Shown piece by piece: positions 335 to 39,723 of a stretch of 59,603 bases of DNA (position 1 is the stretch's first letter; every line of letters starts with the position of its first letter). The notes below the pieces were generated by a model. That model was not told the origin of the DNA. It made no database searches and saw nothing but the letters and a program-made list of their open reading frames with translations. Location of the stretch: NCBI GenBank assembly GCA_944389545.1, contig CALXMT010000013.1, forward strand, positions 1 to 59,603, written 5' to 3'. The stretch is from an uncultured Kiritimatiellota bacterium (GTDB lineage Bacteria; Verrucomicrobiota; Kiritimatiellia; RFP12; DVOR01). A program made the position numbers and the translations under genes.

Positions 335-1615
335 ATGGCATGGATGAAGAGTAAGAAACAAGACGGACAGACCCAGAAGGGTTTGCCCCGTTTGGCTGAT
401 CGCCGGGACTGCACCGGTTGCTCAGCCTGTTTCGCCGCTTGTCCGCGCAACGCCATCGCCATGAAAGCGGATGTCGAGGGGTTTCTGCGCCCTGTCATCA
501 ATGCGGCGCAGTGTGTCCGCTGCGGTGCGTGTTCACGGGTCTGCCCCGTCTTGGCCCCCGGCACGCCCAGCCTTGCTCCCACGTGTTTTGCCGCGCGGAG
601 CAAGGATTTGGACTTGCGTCTGACCAGTTCCTCTGGAGGGCTTTTCACAGAGTTGTCCCGGACGGTTCTGACTGAGGGAGGTCTTGTTTTTGGCGTCGTC
701 TTGGAGAAGCCTGCGCTCACGGCCATTCATGTCGCGGCTGAGACGGAGGAGGCGTTGGCCGCCATGCGCGGCTCCAAATATGTTCAGAGCGACCCCCGCC
801 ATACATTTCGCCAGGTGCGCGATGCGCTTCGCGCCGGTCGCCGCGTCCTTTATAGCGGCACGCCCTGCCAAATTGCCGGACTTCATCGTTTCTTGGGCAA
901 AGCCGATGCCAACCTCCTTACTGTGGAGCTGATTTGCCACGGCGTGCCCAGCCCTGCCGTCTTTGATGCCTTCAAAGCAGAATTGGCGGCTGAGCACGGG
1001 AGTGCCCCAACGAGCATCGCCGCCAGGAATAAGTTTTATTCCTGGCGGCGATTCTCGCTTGTGTCGACCTATGCCGACACAAGCGAGAATCGCGAGGATC
1101 TCTACACGAACCGCTACATCCGAGCCTTTCTCGCAGACCTTTGCCTACGCCCCAGTTGCTACCGTTGTCGGGCGCGCGAAGGCCGTTCCGGCGCCGACAT
1201 CACCCTGGCCGACTTCTGGGGCATCGAAAAGGTTTGCCCTGCGCTGGATGATGACCGCGGCACCTCGGCCGTCCTGCTCCACACCGAAGCCGGCCGCCGA
1301 GCGTGGGCGGCTTGCGCCGACGGCGTGGAGTCCGTTCCCGTCACGCTTGAACAAGTGACAGCCGGCAATGGTGCCTATCTGCGCCCTCCGAGCGAACCCT
1401 TTGGGCGTAAGCGCTACATGGCCCATTTCCGCGACTATCCGTTGGCTGCCGCGCTCGACCTCGCAACTCACAGAACCTGGTATGAACGCCTTGTGCGCCA
1501 CGGCCGCAACGCCGCTCGCCGCCTCATCGCGAGTTGCCGCAAACGATTGACCACAACTAGGGGGGGGGTAAGTAGTTATTTGTATCCCTGCAGGCCCCTC
1601 CCATTCCCCACCTAA
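335..1615 (+). CDS. FrhB-like iron-sulfur protein of a polysaccharide cluster
   Basis: Two ferredoxin-type 4Fe-4S motifs (CTGCSACFAACP near residue 26 and CVRCGACSRVCP near residue 60) precede a domain of the coenzyme F420 hydrogenase/dehydrogenase beta-subunit type. That domain ends in cysteine pairs and ADITLADFWG. Such proteins are frequent in exopolysaccharide loci, where they are thought to be flavin/FeS reductases; the substrate is unknown. ATG 335 is preferred over the TTG at 326 because the -10 box lies at 319-324; a further ATG is at 344. A run of nine G at 1560-1568 falls just before the C-terminus. Losing or gaining one G stops translation about 15 codons early, ahead of the ACP ribosome-binding site that overlaps the normal stop. 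First gene of an apparent operon with the ACP and acyl ligase. Confidence 0.8.
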   Translation: MAWMKSKKQDGQTQKGLPRLADRRDCTGCSACFAACPRNAIAMKADVEGFLRPVINAAQCVRCGACSRVCPVLAPGTPSLAPTCFAARSKDLDLRLTSSSGGLFTELSRTVLTEGGLVFGVVLEKPALTAIHVAAETEEALAAMRGSKYVQSDPRHTFRQVRDALRAGRRVLYSGTPCQIAGLHRFLGKADANLLTVELICHGVPSPAVFDAFKAELAAEHGSAPTSIAARNKFYSWRRFSLVSTYADTSENREDLYTNRYIRAFLADLCLRPSCYRCRAREGRSGADITLADFWGIEKVCPALDDDRGTSAVLLHTEAGRRAWAACADGVESVPVTLEQVTAGNGAYLRPPSEPFGRKRYMAHFRDYPLAAALDLATHRTWYERLVRHGRNAARRLIASCRKRLTTTRGGVSSYLYPCRPLPFPT

Positions 1616-1624
1616 GGAGGCTCC

Positions 1625-1855
1625 ATGCAGGACGAAATCAAGGATGTCATCGCCGATGTTTTGGGCGTGAGTGTGGCGTCGTTGACGGACGACCTCGCGC
1701 CCGGGGATATCCCGGAGTGGGATTCTCTGCGCCATGTGATGGTGCTGACGGCGTTGGAAAAGACGTTCAACATCAAGTTCCAGCGAGAGGAACTGTTGGA
1801 TGTCGAAGATTTGTCGGAGCTGGTTGCGCTGGTTGAGGAGAAGGCGCAACCATGA
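1625..1855 (+). CDS. Acyl carrier protein
   Basis: A 76-residue acidic helical protein of ACP size. The motif EWDSLRHV carries the serine that would take 4'-phosphopantetheine. The ribosome-binding site TAAGGAGG at 1613-1620 is perfect and overlaps the stop codon of the previous gene. Its stop overlaps the start of the acyl-AMP ligase by four bases (ATGA). It is not next to fatty-acid synthesis genes, so it is probably a dedicated carrier loaded by the ligase that follows, delivering an acyl or aminoacyl group for glycan decoration, as DltC does in teichoic acid alanylation. The cargo cannot be read from sequence. Confidence 0.9.
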   Translation: MQDEIKDVIADVLGVSVASLTDDLAPGDIPEWDSLRHVMVLTALEKTFNIKFQREELLDVEDLSELVALVEEKAQP

Positions 1856-3300
1856 GGACGCTGGAGGAGAGAATTTGGGAGAATGCCGCTCGGCTCCCTG
1901 ACAAGCCGGCGGTGAAGAGCGGCTCGCGGCAGGCAACGTATCGTGAGCTGACGCGGCGTATTGCGGCGGCCGCGCAATTCTATGCCACATTGCCAGGCTA
2001 TTCCCGGGGGCGGGCGGTGCTTTTGGCCGCCGGGAAGCAATTGGAGTTTTTGTACGCCTACTTCGGGGCCCATTTGGCGGGGTTGATCGCCGTTCCTTTG
2101 GCGGAGGATACGAACCCAACGCGCTTGGCCTATGTGCGGGAGACGCTGAAGCCCTTCGCCTCGATTGGATTCGCCCCGGGGATGGAGGGTGAGACGCTCC
2201 GTTTGGAGTGGTCGACGTTCGCATCGTTGGACGAGGTGGAGGCGACGCCCGACTTCCCTGCGCCCGAGGCGGTGGCGGACGTGCTCTTCACCACCGGGAC
2301 GACCGGTGCGCCGAAGGGTGTACCCTTGACCTTTGGGAACATTGCCGCCGCGGCGAGTCAAATTAACGCCTATATTCGCAACACCGAGGAAGATGTCGAA
2401 CTGCTGGCGTTGCCGATCAGTCACTCCTTTGGATTGGGGCGTGTGCGGTGCTGTCTGGCGAATGGACAGACGCTGATTTTGTTGGGAAGCTTCGCGAATG
2501 TGAAGCGCCTTTTCCGGTTGTTGCGTGAGGAGCGCGTGACAGGCTTCTCGATGGTGCCGGCCAGTTGGGCCCTGTTGCGCAAACTCTCGGGTGAGGCCTT
2601 GGCGGACTTCGCCGGCCAGTTGCGGTATATCGAGATGGGCAGTGCGCCGTTCAGCGCAGACGACAAACGGCATTTGGCCGAGCTCTTTCCCACCACGCGT
2701 GTCACGATGCACTATGGCCTTACCGAAGCCTCCCGCTCGGCCTTCATGGAGTTTCATGAGGATGACCGGGCGCTTGCGAGCGTGGGGCGTGCCTCTCCGA
2801 ACGTAGACATCGTGATTTGCGATGAGCAGGGCCATGCGTTGCCGCCCGGCGAAGAGGGCGAGATTTGCATCCGCGGGGCGCATGTCACCCGGGGCTACCT
2901 GAATGTTCCCAACGATGCCACCTTTTATGGTGATTATTTCCGTACGGGGGACGTGGGACTCCTTTCCCAGGACGGCTATCTCTATCTGCGAAGCCGCCTG
3001 AAGGAACTCATCAATGTGGGCGGGAAGAAGGTCGCCCCGCAGGAGGTGGATGAGCAGATTCTGAAGGTCCCTGGGGTGAAAGACTGCGCGTGCGTCGGCG
3101 TGCCCGACCCGGATGGGATGCTAGGCGAGGTCGTCAAGGCTTGCGTGGTCAAGGAACCCGGTGCCGAGCTGACGTTCGAGGACATCGCCGCCGCGCTCTC
3201 GTCCCGTTTGGAGGCTTACAAAATCCCGACCGTTTGGGCGTGGATAGATGAGGTCCCGAGAACGCAAAACGGGAAGACGCAACGAGGGTTGCTGAAATGA
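1852..3300 (+). CDS. AMP-dependent acyl ligase (ANL superfamily)
   Basis: A 482-residue adenylate-forming enzyme. It has the phosphate-binding loop FTTGTTGAPKGVPLT (near residue 145), YGLTEAS, the TGD motif in YFRTGDVG, and the C-terminal catalytic lysine in RTQNGKTQRG. At this length it resembles ligases that act on a free-standing carrier protein more than long acyl-CoA synthetases. It overlaps both the ACP upstream and the FrhB-like gene downstream by four bases, so the three are probably translationally coupled. Likely role: ATP-dependent activation of a carboxylate and transfer to the ACP thiol. The acid could be fatty, aromatic or an amino acid. Confidence 0.87.
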   Translation: MRTLEERIWENAARLPDKPAVKSGSRQATYRELTRRIAAAAQFYATLPGYSRGRAVLLAAGKQLEFLYAYFGAHLAGLIAVPLAEDTNPTRLAYVRETLKPFASIGFAPGMEGETLRLEWSTFASLDEVEATPDFPAPEAVADVLFTTGTTGAPKGVPLTFGNIAAAASQINAYIRNTEEDVELLALPISHSFGLGRVRCCLANGQTLILLGSFANVKRLFRLLREERVTGFSMVPASWALLRKLSGEALADFAGQLRYIEMGSAPFSADDKRHLAELFPTTRVTMHYGLTEASRSAFMEFHEDDRALASVGRASPNVDIVICDEQGHALPPGEEGEICIRGAHVTRGYLNVPNDATFYGDYFRTGDVGLLSQDGYLYLRSRLKELINVGGKKVAPQEVDEQILKVPGVKDCACVGVPDPDGMLGEVVKACVVKEPGAELTFEDIAAALSSRLEAYKIPTVWAWIDEVPRTQNGKTQRGLLK

Positions 3301-5117
3301 TTCAGATTGTGGACAAGGCCAAGTGTTGCGGGTGTCAAGCCTGCGGGGACGTCTGCCCCAAAGGCGCCATTACGTTTGAGACGGACGAAGAGGGCTTTTG
3401 GTATCCCAAGGTGAATGCCGGGCTCTGTGTGTCGTGCGGCCTGTGCGAGAAGGTTTGCCCGATGACGCACCTGGAGGTCATCAAGGGCCACGGACAGAAA
3501 GAGCCGAAGGTCTATGGCGGCTTCCATAAGAATCTGGCCATTCGATTCGACTCCACCTCGGGCGGAGCCTTCAGCGCCCTCGCGAACGTGATGTACAAGC
3601 AGGGCGGTTATGTGACGGGCGCCGTGCAGAGCACGGACGACTGGCGTGTCTCCACCTTTGTCAGCTCCAGCAAGCGCGATTTGTCGCGCTTGCGCTCCTC
3701 GAAGTACGTCCAAAGTTCGGCGGAGGGACTCTATCGGCAGATCAAGGAGCTTTTAGAGCAGGGGAAGTCGGTTTTGGCCTGTGGGGCACCTTGTCAGATG
3801 GCCGCGCTTCGCAGTTTCCTTGGCAAAGACTACGACAACCTGGTCATCGTGGACTTCATCTGCCGCGCGACCAATTCGCCTCTGGCCTATGCGAAGTATG
3901 TGGACTGGCTTGAGCGGACGCATAATTCTAAGATTGTCTCCATCAAGGCGAAGAATAAGGAGCACGGGTGGCGTTCGTTGGCCCGCAAGGTCGTCTTCGA
4001 ATCGGGTGAGATCTACTACGGCGAGGGGGAAGAAGACCCTTATCGCAGGGGATACCACTGGAATTACTATGAGCGTCCCTCCTGCCATCAGTGCCCCTTC
4101 AAGGGATTCCCACGGTGCGCGGATATCTCGTTGGGCGATTTCTGGGGTATCGACCGCATCGCGCCGGATCTCGACCATAACCTTGGCACCTCTTGTATCT
4201 TTGTGAACACCGCCAAGGGCGCGGCCTTCTTTGAGCGTGCCAAGGCCTTGATGGAGTTGCGGGAGTTCCCGTTGGAGGCCGTTCTCAGAGGGAATCGCGA
4301 GCCTTTGATGACTCCCGCGCCGATGCCGAACTACGACCGCGCCGCCTTCTTCGCCGATTTGCGTGAGTTGCCCTTTGAGCAGACGGCCGCGAAGTGGTTC
4401 CCGGTGCGGAAGGCACCGCGCTCGTTCAAGAGCAAGGTGAAGGGACTGCTTCGGTTGTTGCTTCGCTTTGGCAAACAGACACTCCACAATCCTGCGCAAG
4501 CCTGGCGGCAGATTCGCTGGAACTTGCTTTGCCCGCAGGTGAAGAGCGGGTGGTTCCGTGGCATCATGCTGAATGTCTACAGCCATTGCTCAATCGATTT
4601 GCGCAAGCGTGGACGGATTGTGGTGGAAAGCGGCACGTTTAGTCTTGGCGCGAAACGTAACCGGAAGTCTCGTTTGGAGACGCGGCTCATGGTTGAGGAT
4701 GGCGCGGAGCTCCGCGTCAAAGGACAGTGCGGCATTGTCTCGGGCGCCGACATTCAGCTCTTCGCCGGCGCGAAGCTGGAACTCGGTGCGAAGTGCGGAT
4801 TCAACCAAGGCTTGCAAATCGTCTGCGCCGAGCGTATCACCATTGGCGAAGATGTGCATATCGGGCGCGATGTTTGGATTCGCGACAACAATGGCGAGCA
4901 CTACATCATCCAGCCCGGCTATACGTGGAAGGCCCCTGTTGTCATCGGCGACCGCTGTTGGATTGGTTCCAACACTGCCATCATGAAGGGCGTTACCATT
5001 GGCGAAGGCACGGTCATTGCCGCCAATTCCGTGGTGACCCATTCCCTTCCCGCGCACTGCCTGGCCTCCGGTAATCCCGCCGAAGTCATCGCCGAAAACA
5101 TCTTCTGGAGACCCTGA
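3297..5117 (+). CDS. FrhB-like iron-sulfur reductase fused to a hexapeptide acyltransferase
   Basis: Residues 1-60 carry two 4Fe-4S motifs (CCGCQACGDVCP, CVSCGLCEKVCP). Residues to about 385 form an FrhB-type domain with a cysteine cluster and ADISLGDFWG. After a basic linker, about residues 440-606 are a left-handed beta-helix transferase of the WcaB/maltose-acetyltransferase type. Its hexapeptide repeats include VVIGDRCWIGSNTAIMKGV and it ends GNPAEVIAENIF. At 606 residues it is clearly a fusion; its paralogue at 335 lacks the transferase. The start overlaps the ligase by four bases. Neighbours suggest that reduction and O- or N-acylation happen on the same glycan or lipid-linked sugar. This is inference; no donor is identifiable. 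Confidence 0.82.
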   Translation: MIQIVDKAKCCGCQACGDVCPKGAITFETDEEGFWYPKVNAGLCVSCGLCEKVCPMTHLEVIKGHGQKEPKVYGGFHKNLAIRFDSTSGGAFSALANVMYKQGGYVTGAVQSTDDWRVSTFVSSSKRDLSRLRSSKYVQSSAEGLYRQIKELLEQGKSVLACGAPCQMAALRSFLGKDYDNLVIVDFICRATNSPLAYAKYVDWLERTHNSKIVSIKAKNKEHGWRSLARKVVFESGEIYYGEGEEDPYRRGYHWNYYERPSCHQCPFKGFPRCADISLGDFWGIDRIAPDLDHNLGTSCIFVNTAKGAAFFERAKALMELREFPLEAVLRGNREPLMTPAPMPNYDRAAFFADLRELPFEQTAAKWFPVRKAPRSFKSKVKGLLRLLLRFGKQTLHNPAQAWRQIRWNLLCPQVKSGWFRGIMLNVYSHCSIDLRKRGRIVVESGTFSLGAKRNRKSRLETRLMVEDGAELRVKGQCGIVSGADIQLFAGAKLELGAKCGFNQGLQIVCAERITIGEDVHIGRDVWIRDNNGEHYIIQPGYTWKAPVVIGDRCWIGSNTAIMKGVTIGEGTVIAANSVVTHSLPAHCLASGNPAEVIAENIFWRP

Positions 5118-5169
5118 TTCATTAGGGTAGGGCTTAGACAATCACGATTTGTTGTAAAAGGAGACAAAG

Positions 5170-6306
5170 ATGTTTCAGAAAGCCAAGAGGATCATTTGGC
5201 AACAGCTTCAGAGGTTCGCCGAACGAAAGCAGTGGCGTGAGGTATTGCAGGAGAGTCGATCTGAGGAGAGGCTCATTCTGAGATCGGTCGATACATCGTG
5301 CATGGACAGTCTTACACAAGCAGAGAAGGAGGCCTATGACCGTCAGTGGGGGTGGTTGGGGTTGCCGCCTTCCTATCGTGAGGTAGAGGTCTTCAAGCAT
5401 TTCAATGGTTTTGACCCCCGCTATCTTTCTCACTACCATTATTTGCCGTTGATTGCGCGTCGCTTGAACGACTATTCCTGGACCAAGCGTTTTGAGTACA
5501 AGGCATTGTTGGGCAGGTTCTCCAACGAGGTTTTGCGACCTCCGCGAACCTTTGCCTGGGCTCTCAATGGAGAATGGTATGATGCGGACTTCCACCAGAT
5601 TCCCTTCGAGGAGGCTGTGCGGCGTTGTGTTGCTCATGACGCGTTTGTCTGCAAGCCCTCGGCTGAAAGTGGGGATGGACGTGGTGTTAAATTGCTCAAA
5701 CGGGGGGGGGTAAACAAGGAGAAATGGGACGCGACTGTTTCTACGATACTTGCTCAATGTTCCAAAGACGCGGTGGTTCAGGAAGTTATCCGACAGTCGC
5801 CGGAGATGGCGCAGTTCAATCCTTCATCTCTTAATACGTTGCGCGTGACGAGCCTGTACTTGAACGGTCGCTTTTCTATCTGTTCAATTATACTTCGAAT
5901 GGGGAAGAGCGGTTCGGTCGTGGACAATTGGAACGCGGGCGGTATTCTATTGGGTGTGTCGCTGGATGGGCAATTGCATGAGTTTGGCTATGATGTCGCG
6001 TATAATCGATTTGCGGATGTCAATGGTATCCGATTTGCGGAGACACGGTTGGCGTGCGTCCCAGCCTTGCTTCGTTTGATTGAAGATGCTCACACGACTC
6101 GCTTTTCCCTATGTAAGCTCATTGGATGGGATATTGCCTATGAAGAAGGAGGGCGGCCTGTGCTTATTGAAGTCAACAGTTCCCAACCTGGCGTATTCGG
6201 CGAACAATTTTGTACCGGCCCGATTTTCGGGGATCGTACGGACGAGGTGATCGCCTATTGCCGTTCCAAGACATTTTCGTATGGCCGGGCCCTGGCAAGT
6301 TATTGA
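5170..6306 (+). CDS. Sugar-transfer-associated ATP-grasp protein
   Basis: A 378-residue protein resembling the ATP-grasp family found in capsule and exopolysaccharide loci. Visible features are FVCKPSAESGDGRGVKLL (nucleotide-binding lysine and glycine-rich loop), SLNTLRVTSL, VDNWNAGGI and the C-terminal metal-binding region GGRPVLIEVNSSQPG. ATP-grasp enzymes join a carboxylate to an amine or thiol through an acyl phosphate, so this one may attach an amino acid or similar group to a sugar acid. A ribosome-binding site AAAGGAG lies 8 bases before the ATG. Nine G at 5702-5710 lie mid-gene, and loss of one gives an immediate TAA near residue 180. GC content is lower than downstream housekeeping genes. 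Confidence 0.78.
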   Translation: MFQKAKRIIWQQLQRFAERKQWREVLQESRSEERLILRSVDTSCMDSLTQAEKEAYDRQWGWLGLPPSYREVEVFKHFNGFDPRYLSHYHYLPLIARRLNDYSWTKRFEYKALLGRFSNEVLRPPRTFAWALNGEWYDADFHQIPFEEAVRRCVAHDAFVCKPSAESGDGRGVKLLKRGGVNKEKWDATVSTILAQCSKDAVVQEVIRQSPEMAQFNPSSLNTLRVTSLYLNGRFSICSIILRMGKSGSVVDNWNAGGILLGVSLDGQLHEFGYDVAYNRFADVNGIRFAETRLACVPALLRLIEDAHTTRFSLCKLIGWDIAYEEGGRPVLIEVNSSQPGVFGEQFCTGPIFGDRTDEVIAYCRSKTFSYGRALASY

Positions 6307-6316
6307 GGGGCGTTTG

Positions 6317-8320
6317 ATGAGACGTTCCAGGATCCTAAAGGCTTGTATCGCGCTGATTGTGCTAGGAGGAGTCTTTCTAGCCGGTCTTTTGGCGCGTCCT
6401 TGGGTTGAGCCGTTTGCACGGAAGGTGTGGCATCGGATTGAGCGGATATTCTGCCCTCCCCCGCCGCCTCCGGAGCAATATCCAATCTGGCCGGTGATGA
6501 CGCCTGAACAAGAAGCGCAGGTGGCAGACGCGGTGAAGTTGACGTTTGTGGGAGATTTGATTTTGCTGCGCGATGGCGTTGAGTTCGGATATGACGCAAC
6601 GTACGGAACATTCTCTTACGAAGAGGTCTTTGAGCGCGTAAGGCATTTTTGGGAAACGGACGATTTGACGATAGGTGTCTTTGAGGGACCCATGGCAGGG
6701 ACTTCACGGCCGTGGAGCACGAGCGACTATCATGACATGGATCGTGTTCCGCTTTATCTCAATTTCCCGGATGCCTTTGGCGAGGCGGTGGCGGAGGCCG
6801 GGATGGATGTGGTGACGCTGGCCAACAATCATTTGTTGGATTGCGGCGTTGAGGGGGTGATGCGAACCTTGGAACTTCTGCCGAAACAAGGAATGACCGC
6901 AGTGGGCGCTTATCGTACGCCCGATGAGCGCAATCGAATTGAGATTGTGGAGGTGAAAGGCCTTCGTTTGGCGTTGCTTCCTTACACCTACGGAAGCAAT
7001 TATTGGCCGGAGAGCGCGTTCTTTGGGGAAGGGGAGATGCGTTCGCTCACACGTGTCTTGGCAACACCGGAATCGCCGTATTTGGAGGAGTCGTTGCATC
7101 AGGTGGAGGCAGATTTCGCCCGTGCGCGAGAGTCCGGCGCTAACCTGATTGTGGCCTTGCCGCATATGGGGGAACAGTTCCTGCACGCTCCGGACGAGAT
7201 GCAGCGTTATTGGTGCGATGTGTTTGTGCGTTTGGGTGCTGATTTGGTGCTCTCCGATCATCCGCATGCGGCTCAACCCATCGAATGGCGCAAGCGTGGA
7301 ACGGAAGATGTCTTGGTGGTGCATTGTCCTGGCAACTTCGTCAATTCCTATTCGCCTCATGATGGGGACGCCTCGATGATGGTGGAGATTTATCTTTCCA
7401 AGACAGGGGGATCACCTCTTGCTGCAACGTGTATTCCGCTTTATGGCTATGGGGTCCCAGGAGGAAACTATCAGGCGGTTCCTACCCATGATGTATTGAC
7501 GGACACTGCGCTGTGGGATACCATGAGCCGCAATGATCAACGTCGATTGCGGGAAGTGCAAGCCTTGGTGACGAGACATGCACTGGGGAATCCCATCCTT
7601 TTGGAGAACGCCGAGCCGCGTCATTTCACATTTCCGGGCGTGGGTTATGTACGGCAACGCGTGCAACCTCTGGAGCTCTCCCCGCGCCAACGTACATCGA
7701 CACTCTGGCGTACGTTGGAGGCGGCGGGAAGCATTTGCTTTGTGGGGGATAGCATCACAGAGGGGACGCGTAATGGCGGCGTGGGTTGGTATGAGCCCTT
7801 GGCGGAGAGCTTGAAGGGCAAAACCATCACGCGTTTCGCCAAGGGGAGCATGACCTCGCGATATTTTGAAGAGAATGTGGTGACTTTGGCGGCACAACGG
7901 GCGGATGTCTACGTTATGGCCTATGGGTGCAATGATATTCGCTATCGGGATCCTGCTCGGTGTGCGATGACACCGGAGGACTTTGTCGCTTCTTGTGAGC
8001 GTGTGGTGGCAGGGATTCGTGCGCAGGTGTCTCAGGCACGATTTGTCTTTGTCGCGCCGTGGCGAAGCCGTTTTTACGACCATAATTGGAAGGGAACAGA
8101 AGCAGAAAAGTGGGCGCTTTACGATGCATATGACCATGCGTTGGAGACGTTCTGCAAAGCGTCTGGACATCTCTTCATAAATCCTAATAGAGATTCGGAT
8201 TACAACGCGTTGTTTACTTCTCCAACATGGGGGGGGGTGCGCTTTGTCGATGGCATTCACCCAGGCGCAGCCTTGGGCGTCCGAGCGTATAGCAAGGCCT
8301 GTCTGGAAGTATCGCCATGA
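6317..8320 (+). CDS. CapA-type metallophosphatase fused to an SGNH hydrolase
   Basis: An N-terminal signal anchor (residues 1-27) is followed by a CapA/PgsA-type calcineurin-like domain with LTFVGDLILL, ANNHLLDCG, LPHMGEQF and LSDHPHAAQP. From about residue 450 there is an SGNH/GDSL hydrolase with block I FVGDSITEG, block III YGCNDIRYRD and block V VDGIHPG. The protein is therefore probably envelope-facing. ATG 6317 is chosen because GAGGGG precedes it and it begins the hydrophobic anchor; the ATG at 6281 would overlap the previous gene by 26 bases. Nine G at 8229-8237 lie just before block V, so slippage would delete the catalytic Asp-His. It overlaps the acyltransferase gene by four bases. 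The pairing suggests placing or removing acyl groups on a surface polymer. Confidence 0.8.
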   Translation: MRRSRILKACIALIVLGGVFLAGLLARPWVEPFARKVWHRIERIFCPPPPPPEQYPIWPVMTPEQEAQVADAVKLTFVGDLILLRDGVEFGYDATYGTFSYEEVFERVRHFWETDDLTIGVFEGPMAGTSRPWSTSDYHDMDRVPLYLNFPDAFGEAVAEAGMDVVTLANNHLLDCGVEGVMRTLELLPKQGMTAVGAYRTPDERNRIEIVEVKGLRLALLPYTYGSNYWPESAFFGEGEMRSLTRVLATPESPYLEESLHQVEADFARARESGANLIVALPHMGEQFLHAPDEMQRYWCDVFVRLGADLVLSDHPHAAQPIEWRKRGTEDVLVVHCPGNFVNSYSPHDGDASMMVEIYLSKTGGSPLAATCIPLYGYGVPGGNYQAVPTHDVLTDTALWDTMSRNDQRRLREVQALVTRHALGNPILLENAEPRHFTFPGVGYVRQRVQPLELSPRQRTSTLWRTLEAAGSICFVGDSITEGTRNGGVGWYEPLAESLKGKTITRFAKGSMTSRYFEENVVTLAAQRADVYVMAYGCNDIRYRDPARCAMTPEDFVASCERVVAGIRAQVSQARFVFVAPWRSRFYDHNWKGTEAEKWALYDAYDHALETFCKASGHLFINPNRDSDYNALFTSPTWGGVRFVDGIHPGAALGVRAYSKACLEVSP

Positions 8321-9384
8321 GTGTCGCCAGAACACCTTGCCGGATTTCGTCGGACCTCTCTTCGCGGATGGCCAACATGGGCGTGCTTTGTGCGCTCTTG
8401 GTTGTGTTGATTCATTGTTATGTGCCATCAGAGACGTGGTCGGGTTTTTGGTGGTTCACGGAGATTGTTGGGGGAGGCGAGTGGTTGCATGGTTGTTTCA
8501 TTCGGTGTGCGGTTCCTTATTTCTTTCTGGCTGCGGGATTCTTCCTCGCTGGACACGTCGCGGATGGGCAGGGGTGGTGGCGGCGTGCCGTTCTCAAACG
8601 GTGCCGAACGTTGGTCGTGCCCTATCTTGTGTGGTCGACTGTGGCAGCGGTATTGGTCGGGACACTCATGGTGGTCTGGAAAGGTGAGAGCCTGACGGTG
8701 GGTTGGTTTTTACGGGCCTTTGGCGTGAATCCTTTTTCCTTACCTTTGTTGAAACAACTGTGGTTCCTGCAGAGCCTCTTCTTGCTTGTATTTCTCTCAC
8801 CTATTCTGGTGCGGGCGCTTTCGCCGATGTCGTTGGTGGTGACGGCAGGTCTGTACCTGATTTACGTGTTGAGACCCTTTGAATGGCCGTGGCAAGTCTA
8901 TGCGCTCTTTGGGTTGTCCTGCTCGTTGGAGGGGCTTTTCTACTTTTCGCTTGGGATGTGGTTGCGTCTACATCCAATGAAGATGCCTCGGCGGGGAACG
9001 TTGTTGGCGATAGCGTTGCCGATTTTTCTTGCGATTGCCTTTGCCTATGCGTATTGCGATGGACTTGGCAGGTCTGTTGCAGCAAATCTCTTGAAGACGG
9101 TTTCCGTGCCTTGTGCGATGGGGGTGGTATGGGCGCTGACACCGGCATGTCGGTGGCCTCGTTGGCTGACGCAGAACGCCTTTCCCATCTTTTTGCTTCA
9201 TCTTTTTCCGTTGATTGCCATTCGCAGAGCGGCAGGGCCCGGATGGGGGGCTCCGCCGACGGGCAATTTATTTTTGGTTTTGATCGGCTGTTGGTTGGTG
9301 GCGGTGGTCTTTGCACTGATTGCCACAGAAGGCCTGAGGCGTCTTTTCCCACGTGTGGCGGACTTTGTTTTCGGAGGACGATGA
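8317..9384 (+). CDS. Acyltransferase 3 family membrane protein
   Basis: A 355-residue polytopic protein with about ten hydrophobic segments. The first helix has the family pattern LVVLIHCYVPSE, where the histidine is the presumed catalytic residue; VPYFFLAAGFFLAG and CRTLVVPYLVW follow in the expected order. Such proteins move acetyl or other acyl groups across the membrane onto surface sugars. In many systems an SGNH domain finishes the transfer, and here SGNH-type proteins lie on both sides. The ATG overlaps the upstream stop by four bases. The substrate is not predictable. Confidence 0.85.
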   Translation: MSVARTPCRISSDLSSRMANMGVLCALLVVLIHCYVPSETWSGFWWFTEIVGGGEWLHGCFIRCAVPYFFLAAGFFLAGHVADGQGWWRRAVLKRCRTLVVPYLVWSTVAAVLVGTLMVVWKGESLTVGWFLRAFGVNPFSLPLLKQLWFLQSLFLLVFLSPILVRALSPMSLVVTAGLYLIYVLRPFEWPWQVYALFGLSCSLEGLFYFSLGMWLRLHPMKMPRRGTLLAIALPIFLAIAFAYAYCDGLGRSVAANLLKTVSVPCAMGVVWALTPACRWPRWLTQNAFPIFLLHLFPLIAIRRAAGPGWGAPPTGNLFLVLIGCWLVAVVFALIATEGLRRLFPRVADFVFGGR

Positions 9385-14660: not shown

Positions 14661-14874
14661 CTTCGGAAGAGGGGGGGGGGAGGCCCTCTGTATCTGTTAT
14701 ATAATAAGGTAGGGGGAGGGGCGCTGGCGCGCCCCAGAGAACGGAGAACAGAGAACGGAGAACAGAACGCCCCTGCGGGGCGACGGATAGACCGAGGGGT
14801 GTGGGGCGCAGCTCCACCAAGAGCACCAATCAGCTAATCAGCTGGCAACTCGGGGCGGCTGCCGCCGCCCCGAG

Positions 14875-31582: not shown

Positions 31583-32314
31583 TTAGGCCACGCGACGGCG
31601 GAGGGCCACGCCGGCCACGCCGAGGGCCAAGAGCGCCAGGGCCGTCGGCTCGGGGATGGACTCCGTGGAATCCGTGCGCTGACCCGCCACCAGGGCCGCG
31701 ATGTCTTCCTCCGTGAGCGTCTCGTTATAGCCGGAGATCGCTTCGAGGGAGTAGAAGGTGTCCGGGAAATCCTTGAAGCTGTCCTTGCCGAATTTCACTT
31801 CTCCAATCATCGGGTGAGAGCCGGTAGGCGCGCCGATGGCGCTGATGTCCGAGAAGATGAGTGTATTGTTCACGTAGCAGAACTGGCGGGTCTCGTTGGC
31901 CTCCGCGTCCCACTGGTAGACCAGAGAGACGATGTAGGTGTTGCCGGCCTCCAGCGTGAAACGATTGGCCACCCCGCCATTGGAGCTCGTGGCCCACGTA
32001 TTGTTATTACCATGCACCACACCGAGCGAGAGGCCAGAGCCATCCCCGTTGTTTTCTGCCGCGATGCGCAACTTGGTGCCGCCGAAACCATCGCTGTTCG
32101 CGATGAAGAGATTGGCCATGTTCGCGGAGGCGGCTTCCGGGATGGAGAGCTTGAGGACGATGGAGCCGCAGCCGTTCGAGAACTTGGAGGTTACGCTGGT
32201 GTTGTCGGGGACGGGGGTGATGTCGTTCCCGACGTTCGTCCAGTCGGCGGAGGCCGCCTGCGCGGCACCGAGGGTAAGTGCGGCAATCGCCGCGGTGAAA
32301 AGCAAACGTTTCAT
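31583..32314 (-). CDS. PEP-CTERM sorting domain protein
   Basis: A 243-residue secreted protein with a signal peptide (MKRLLFTAAIAALTLGAAQA), an Asn/Gly/Ser-rich beta-type body and the C-terminal signal PEPTALALLALGVAGVALRR. This directs processing by an exosortase and export to the envelope or exopolysaccharide matrix. The body has one LamG-like segment (GNTYIVSLVYQWD) and ends with NETLTEEDIAAL. No exosortase gene lies in the window. The last 23 residues match those of the protein at 38914 although the codons differ. AAAGGAG precedes the ATG. Confidence 0.88.
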   Translation of the reverse strand: MKRLLFTAAIAALTLGAAQAASADWTNVGNDITPVPDNTSVTSKFSNGCGSIVLKLSIPEAASANMANLFIANSDGFGGTKLRIAAENNGDGSGLSLGVVHGNNNTWATSSNGGVANRFTLEAGNTYIVSLVYQWDAEANETRQFCYVNNTLIFSDISAIGAPTGSHPMIGEVKFGKDSFKDFPDTFYSLEAISGYNETLTEEDIAALVAGQRTDSTESIPEPTALALLALGVAGVALRRRVA

Positions 32315-32359: not shown

Positions 32360-32387
32360 AGTTTAACATAACTGACGGAAGGGGCAA
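32360..32387 (-). promoter_or_regulatory. Promoter of the first PEP-CTERM gene
   Basis: On the minus strand: TTGCCC (32387-32382), a 16-bp spacer and an extended -10 TGT-TAAACT (32368-32360). The block AAGCGCAACAAATA just upstream and the promoter layout are shared with the second PEP-CTERM gene at 39588. Confidence 0.6.
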
Positions 32388-38913: not shown

Positions 38914-39588
38914 TTAGGCCACGCGGCGGCGGAGTGCCACGCCGGCCACGCCAAGCGCCAGCAACGCCAACGCCGTCGGCTCAGGCAGGGTCGCAATGGC
39001 GTCCCCGACCTCGTCGTAGGTCATCCCATTGACGTACGCGATGTCCATCGACCATTCGCCGGGAAGCGCCTTGAAGGTGCTTCCGTCGTTGTTGACGCGT
39101 TGGCAACCCCACGTGACGGCGGAGATGTCGGCCACACGAGCGTCTGTGATGGAGCCCAAGAGCTGGCCATCGTAGTAGTAGCTCAGCGTGTTGCCGTCGG
39201 CGCAGATGGCAACCTCGTGGGTGCCGTTTGTCAGCACAGGGGCGTTTTGGACGGAGGCATCCGTCGCGCCAATCGTATTGGGACCACCATTAACCAAGAC
39301 GCGCCAGGGGCTTTGCAAGTTACCGTTGGTTCCGTTATCCACGTTGGTGGAGACACCTAGGACTCCCGGCCAATCGCTGGTGATGGCGCTCACGTTCTCG
39401 AAGGTGACGTTGGCCAGGACGGTCCACTTGGTGCCAAGCGTGATATTCTGCTGGCGACCGGCGGTGGTCTTCGTGCCGAGGGAGGTGTAGCCATCGACTT
39501 CCGGGAGGTAGGCCCAATTGAGGCCAGCCGCCTGGGCGGTGCCGAGGGCGAGGGCGGCGCAAGCCGCGATAAGGAAGGATTTCTTCAT
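38914..39588 (-). CDS. PEP-CTERM sorting domain protein with a LamG-like body
   Basis: A 224-residue secreted protein. Signal peptide MKKSFLIAACAALALGTAQA; the body resembles a concanavalin-like lectin domain (TWTVLANVTFE-type strands, HEVAICADGNTLSYYYDGQL); and the C-terminus is PEPTALALLALGVAGVALRR. Export and exosortase processing are expected. ATG 39588 follows GAAAGGAG and starts the signal peptide; upstream codons in frame are not signal-like. The promoter contains a nine-base poly-C tract in its spacer, so expression may switch. Confidence 0.86.
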   Translation of the reverse strand: MKKSFLIAACAALALGTAQAAGLNWAYLPEVDGYTSLGTKTTAGRQQNITLGTKWTVLANVTFENVSAITSDWPGVLGVSTNVDNGTNGNLQSPWRVLVNGGPNTIGATDASVQNAPVLTNGTHEVAICADGNTLSYYYDGQLLGSITDARVADISAVTWGCQRVNNDGSTFKALPGEWSMDIAYVNGMTYDEVGDAIATLPEPTALALLALGVAGVALRRRVA

Positions 39589-39694: not shown

Positions 39695-39723
39695 ACATTA
39701 GCATAACCAACGGGGGGGGGCAA
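39695..39723 (-). promoter_or_regulatory. Promoter of the second PEP-CTERM gene with a poly-C spacer
   Basis: On the minus strand: TTGCCC (39723-39718), a 17-bp spacer and an extended -10 TGC-TAATGT (39703-39695). Nine C (39720-39712) span the end of the -35 and the first part of the spacer. Gain or loss of one C would change the spacing to 18 or 16 bp. The first PEP-CTERM gene has the same layout without the homopolymer. Confidence 0.6.

Follow-up and report, generated by a model that had tools for sequence, protein, structure and literature searches.

The glycan cluster and its poly-G tracts

This work concerns runs of G (or C) in the genome of an uncultured Kiritimatiellota bacterium, beginning with a 59,603-nt stretch of contig CALXMT010000013.1 (the window). 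Near its start lies a glycan-decoration cluster in the order FrhB-like iron-sulfur protein, acyl carrier protein (ACP), AMP-forming ligase, FrhB-hexapeptide fusion, sugar-transfer ATP-grasp enzyme, CapA-SGNH protein and acyltransferase. Three genes of this one cluster carry a frame-compatible run of nine G. With high confidence, G/C runs of this kind are proposed to act as random switches on glycan genes and on the promoters of PEP-CTERM surface proteins in this species. The cluster and its tracts comprise the following features.

326–1615, + strand: FrhB/FdhB-like iron-sulfur protein, 4Fe-4S with FrhB_FdhB_N/C (Pfam PF04432, E 1.8e-17; PF04422; Fer4)
1560–1568, + strand: tract of nine G, in frame, 14 codons 5' of the FrhB stop, which lies just before the ACP start
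1625–1855, + strand: acyl carrier protein, starting about 10 nt past the FrhB stop codon (PF00550, E 2.7e-06)
1852–3300, + strand: AMP-binding acyl-adenylating enzyme (PF00501, E 6e-67)
3297–5117, + strand: FrhB-like protein fused to a hexapeptide acyltransferase (PF04432, PF00132)
5170–6306, + strand: sugar-transfer associated ATP-grasp enzyme (PF14397, E 1e-29)
5702–5710, + strand: tract of nine G, in frame, at ATP-grasp residues 178–181, in a loop that reads R-D-G in homologues
6281–8320, + strand: CapA-like (PGA_cap) and SGNH/GDSL esterase fusion (PF09587, E 1.7e-52; PF13472, E 3.5e-14)
8229–8237, + strand: tract of nine G, in frame, directly 5' of the Asp-His block of the SGNH domain
8317–9384, + strand: tract-free acyltransferase 3 family protein, also part of the cluster (PF01757, E 1.2e-21)

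Exactly five runs of at least nine G occur in the window (1560–1568, 5702–5710, 8229–8237, 14671–14680 and 39712–39720). The first three had been reported as in-frame tracts in an initial annotation of the window, and their coordinates and frames were verified exactly. All three share the codon setting xGG GGG GGG GTx and encode R-G-G-V, R-G-G-V and W-G-G-V, respectively. Loss of one G was said to place TAA straight after the tract, which holds for 1560 and 5702, and an Asp-His block was said to follow the tract at 8229, where a D-x-x-H motif (VDGIH) was located on the 3' side. The statement that coding DNA of the window holds no further run of this length also stands; the runs at 14671 (ten G) and 39712 (nine G) are both extragenic. 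What had been overlooked is that the run at 39712 belongs to a promoter and forms part of the same system. The ACP gene was likewise absent from the earlier account.

Long tracts across the genome

Both strands of the whole 2.53-Mb genome contain 70 runs of seven G, 14 of eight and 35 of nine to 14. Extrapolating a decaying series from the step of 70 to 14 leaves, by our estimate, about three to four runs of nine or more, against the 35 observed. By our sorting, 15 of these 35 tracts lie in promoter spacers and 10 in genes, and the other 10 have no assigned role. Besides the three of the window, the gene tracts fall in two polytopic membrane proteins encoded in tandem (one of them weakly matches a hexose-transferase family), a GT2, a GT8, a 2190-amino-acid secreted protein and two copies of an HKD-SNF2 helicase. 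Coding tracts are thus found mainly in glycan genes.

Such runs could be unselected products of chance in a G+C-rich genome, with their length differences reflecting ordinary drift at slippery DNA. Synonymous recoding of 298 kb of genes predicts from codon usage alone about 10.7 G/C runs of nine or more, and 11 were seen, in a sample chosen for tracts. Counts in genes are therefore not the main argument, and the case there is made by placement, length change and broken alleles. The chance explanation also draws on the 10 tracts without a visible role and on a run at C21:41356, which is intergenic, has no promoter and changes length too. However, G/C runs of seven to eight are strongly depleted in genes, with 11 seen against 71 predicted by recoding of 226 genes; in its genes, this genome therefore avoids runs of that length while long ones are retained. 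Base composition was rejected as a yardstick for tract numbers, as codon usage predicts far more runs of seven to eight than are present. In addition, runs of nine or more G are not fewer in the genome than runs of eight, and tracts encoding W-G-G-V (membrane protein) and R-G-G (FrhB) persist amid diverged surroundings. The promoter placement described below is a further point against chance. For the promoter tracts this explanation is largely refuted, and for the system as a whole we regard it as highly improbable.

The clustering of three tracts in the window is modest evidence by itself, because about 0.14 triples spanning no more than 6.7 kb would be expected, on a rough scan estimate, if the 35 tracts were placed at random. 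It becomes stronger when set against the roughly ten gene-located tracts only.

Tracts in promoter spacers

The promoter tracts sit between a −35 box (TTGAC or TTGCC) and a −10 box (TAnnnT) that are 16–18 bp apart. Two classes were recognized, TTGAC-n-G8..14-n-TAnnnT (G class) and TTG-C8..10-n-TGnTAnnnT (C class). A promoter score of at least 15 was reached by 13 of the 35 tracts, while shuffled flanks would yield 0.3. Among 12 sampled genomes of the genus, the G class was found at 85 sites and the reversed control at none. The corresponding counts were 23 and 1 in the rest of the order, and by our tally the remaining classes of the phylum were at background. Spacer lengths have their mode at 17 bp and 83% lie within 15–19; an extended −10 (TGn) is present in 61 of 84. 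A negative correlation between tract length and the remaining spacer was sought and was not significant (r −0.12, p 0.13). The window holds one such promoter with a tract and one with a fixed spacer, each with its PEP-CTERM gene.

39695–39723, − strand: tract promoter TTGCCC-17 bp-TAATGT whose spacer holds nine C (nine G at 39712–39720 on the + strand)
38914–39588, − strand: lectin-like PEP-CTERM surface protein of jelly-roll fold, preceded by the tract promoter (TIGR02595 above cut-off, PF07589, AlphaFold model)
32360–32387, − strand: promoter of the same type in fixed form, its spacer interrupted and not a homopolymer (TTGCCCCTTCC...TAAACT)
31583–32314, − strand: another PEP-CTERM surface protein in the window (PF07589)

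The three coding tracts of the window were also scored as promoters. Their scores were low (10–12), at or below the level of shuffled flanks, and a promoter reading was rejected for 5702 and 8229. The tract at 1560 has a weak TTGACC and no proper −10.

PEP-CTERM proteins as probable targets

The genome encodes 16 PEP-CTERM genes (PF07589). Upstream of these genes, a tract promoter with a run of at least eight is present in 11 cases, a run of seven C in one, matching boxes around an interrupted run in three and none of these in one. The hallmarks of a PEP-CTERM/exosortase system were all found, namely a signal peptide (judged by eye), a C-terminal PEP motif with a hydrophobic helix and RRR, and an exosortase gene. 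One exosortase was found in each of the eight genomes searched, and that of this genome is EpsH-type (E 1.8e-38). Across the genus, a PEP-CTERM tail lies within 2 kb of at least 29 of 34 C-class promoters and at least 32 of 82 G-class promoters, where chance would give about 0.6%. Among the matches listed, almost all tails lie 580–800 nt downstream of the promoter, and those of the 29 C-class promoters at 580–750 nt. The protein at 38914–39588 was modeled with AlphaFold (predicted local distance difference test 79) as a lectin-like jelly roll that matches lectin-bearing sialidases and a CBM40 domain at a template modeling score of about 0.4, so that only its fold class can be assigned.

Promoter tracts might instead be fixed structural or regulator-binding elements, such as a G-rich element, rather than switches. 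Conservation does extend to the flanks of the C class (AAATAA upstream), and PEP-CTERM promoters may share a regulator. However, tract lengths range from 8 to 14 and differ between near-identical orthologues, as detailed below. Furthermore, PEP-CTERM genes exist in which the same boxes surround an interrupted or short tract (C13:31592, C19:13272, C18:32277 and C8:42139), and the run is therefore not needed for this promoter type. A fixed element is accordingly a very unlikely explanation.

Two neighboring PEP-CTERM genes were observed at locus L017, behind tracts of eight (4964–4971) and nine (6016–6024). They have a common promoter and signal peptide and different mature domains, which suggests module shuffling of surface proteins.

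Length changes and out-of-frame alleles

Tract length was compared between close relatives, including sister species. Between genomes G001 and G005, tracts of 9 and 10 are flanked by DNA equal at 398 of 400 bases, tracts of 10 and 8 by DNA equal at 394 of 400, and a further pair measures 12 and 10. The coding tract of a GT8 is 12 in G000 and 9 in G003 (1911 bp, 97.1% identical), and an intergenic tract is 10 and 9 in the same two genomes (1798 bp, 97.8% identical). Two copies 1 kb apart inside the genome studied here have tracts of 8 and 9. In this species and its relatives, tract length changes far faster than the surrounding DNA. The W-G-G-V tract of the membrane protein has been retained in G003 despite flanks that are only about 78% identical.

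Several alleles are out of frame at their tract. A genus search for an orthologue of the window ATP-grasp gene (5170–6306) gave only homologues of about 30% identity. Two of these stand in tandem in G015, each with its own poly-G, and in both the tract marks the point where the frame of the first half of the gene gives way to a different frame in the second. A GT4 in G005 is split likewise, its Pfam match being broken into 4–43 and 64–135. The HKD-SNF2 helicase (PADLOC HKD+Snf2, E 1.3e-66) has its poly-G near the start codon. It is out of frame at 11 G in two copies of this genome (L002:6294–6304 and L024:1128–1138) and at 10 G in G003 (L187:1066–1075), and in frame at nine G in G005 (L134:1042–1050). 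These alleles make the helicase a candidate phase-variable defense gene.

Assembly or sequencing error could in principle explain why tracts differ in length and frames are broken. Homopolymers are error-prone, and at least one genome of the genus is a metagenome bin. On the other hand, the G015 contigs carry SPAdes-style names (NODE_...), as is usual for short reads, and most aligned pairs show few indels elsewhere across kilobases. Moreover, errors would not put tracts into promoter spacers or glycan genes. Error is a very unlikely explanation.

In large secreted proteins of two species, a poly-C was observed just after the signal peptide (L014:7296–7304 and L167:1316–1325).

The FrhB tract at 1560

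Slippage at 1560 had been expected to abolish FrhB function. This was not supported, as the tract lies only 14 codons before the stop, and a role as a plain on/off switch is unlikely. The tract may rather tune the C-terminus or the translation of the next gene. An FrhB homologue in G001, which is another species (locus L174; 50.6% identity over 350 residues), has nine G at the same point (T-T-R-G-G). Retention of the run in a homologue of only about 50% identity indicates that the tract is old and conserved.

Its function could tentatively be a translation-coupling or tail switch, in which the in-frame stop falls just before the next start and the out-of-frame stop 40–44 nt earlier. The in-frame stop lies 44 nt after the tract in both the window and L174, the next start follows at 56 and 57 nt, respectively, and slipped frames stop at 0–24 nt. 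The downstream genes differ between the two loci (ACP in the window, another protein in L174), and tracts near gene ends were seen repeatedly (L013, L197 and L198). However, the matching spacing may reflect just the homology of the two FrhB genes, the gene at L198 is without the FrhB-tract geometry, and at L174 the reverse strand, too, can be read as a C-class promoter, in which case antisense transcription would be the alternative. Taken together, a coupling or tail switch is possible and rather doubtful.

Resemblance of the opposite strand to a C-class promoter is clear at L174:1009–1017 and weak at 1560–1568 of the window; antisense transcription is possible at these FrhB ends.

A proposed slippage-controlled surface

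The initial annotation had read the coding tracts as contingency loci for surface decoration. Apart from loss of function at 1560, this idea is well supported by the length changes in near-identical orthologues, the out-of-frame alleles of two ATP-grasp genes and a GT4, and the retained nine G in FrhB. It was right for coding tracts and incomplete, as a large part of the tracts lies in promoters.

In the mechanism proposed here, a run of about 8–14 G (or C) would gain or lose bases when it is copied. Where the run lies in a gene (ATP-grasp, CapA-SGNH, several glycosyltransferases and the HKD-SNF2 helicase), the frame would be thrown and the protein would end early. Where it lies in a promoter, the distance between −35 and −10 would shift around an optimum of 17 and so set transcription of the PEP-CTERM surface protein. 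Changes in tract length would thereby very probably switch sugar-coat and surface-protein genes randomly between on and off in individual cells. We infer that such changes occur within one population, where cells would differ in their combinations of sugar coat and lectin-like surface proteins. This could allow escape from phages or immunity, or altered adhesion.

Several points weigh against random switching. Ten of the 35 tracts have no assigned role, long runs in genes are about as frequent as recoding predicts, and slippage at 1560 would trim the FrhB tail only. The length comparisons use assembled genomes, which do not display variation within a population. Most of these genomes appear to come from metagenome assemblies, and homopolymer lengths can be wrong there. 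The three coding tracts of the window have no orthologue in a near-identical genome, so that their own length change is unseen; for CapA-SGNH, no homologue was present among the loci compared.

Random switching by tract length is probably a lineage-wide feature of these Kiritimatiellota. Most exosortase-sorted lectin-like proteins would have their own poly-G or poly-C spacer promoter, in parallel to coding tracts in glycan genes and a defense helicase, and each cell would present a combinatorial surface. If so, the set of slippage-controlled promoters in this uncultured and little-studied lineage is among the larger ones known. Exosortase substrates, about whose role little is understood, would then make up a surface repertoire subject to phase variation. 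Gene prediction in such genomes would also label switched-off genes as broken.

Comparison with known systems

In Campylobacter and Helicobacter, which belong to another phylum, G/C runs are known to shift the frame of surface and glycan genes; the families affected here are different ones (ATP-grasp_ST, CapA-SGNH and FrhB-like). Switching of C-terminal sequences has been described in Helicobacter canadensis (PMC2823697). In Neisseria, porA, opc and fetA have promoter poly-G or poly-C, which in fetA and porA lies between −35 and −10 and alters spacing and expression (van der Ende 1995, Sarkari 1994 and Carson 2000, cited in PMC5084427 and PMC5320596). For one gonococcal strain, the list of transcriptionally phase-variable genes has three entries. 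By comparison, the present genome has 15 promoter tracts of nine or more in two sequence classes, mostly on exosortase substrates, and belongs to an unrelated phylum.

The closest precedent is Akkermansia muciniphila, a gut bacterium of the Verrucomicrobia, close to Kiritimatiellota (PMC3048395). Tracts longer than 8 bp were reported in 17 of its genes, including a capsule gene (eight G) and an acyltransferase (10 C), along with 21 PEP-CTERM proteins and an exosortase, and phase variation was suggested. In the portion of that paper used here, however, tracts are reported within genes only and PEP-CTERM proteins separately from them, and promoter-spacer tracts, length comparison and broken alleles do not appear. 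Random switching of surface genes in gut bacteria is also achieved by invertons (invertible promoters), one group of which lies near a PEP-CTERM protein; these rely on DNA inversion by a recombinase, in contrast to homopolymer slippage (PMC11892184).

The slippage mechanism itself is known. In open-licence literature, nothing was found that links Kiritimatiellae to phase variation, Kiritimatiellota to PEP-CTERM, or exosortases to phase-variable surface proteins. Judged by that literature, the system appears to be new in its scale, in its lineage and in its link to exosortase, a single lineage combining numerous probable spacer switches on exosortase substrates with coding switches in glycan genes.

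Other tracts

The remaining run of the window lies apart from these genes.

14671–14680, + strand: run of ten G, intergenic, beside short repeated palindromic DNA

Neither a promoter nor a reading frame was found around it. Intergenic G runs beside short repeated palindromic sequences (GACCCTTATAGGGTCTC) were observed both here and at L001:6166–6174. Finally, a scan of GTDB for the one promoter form TTGAC-N4-G9-TGGTAT returned single promoters at 36 scattered loci (L033–L068) in many phyla, with genomes of Clostridia, Spirochaetes and Saccharibacteria among them.

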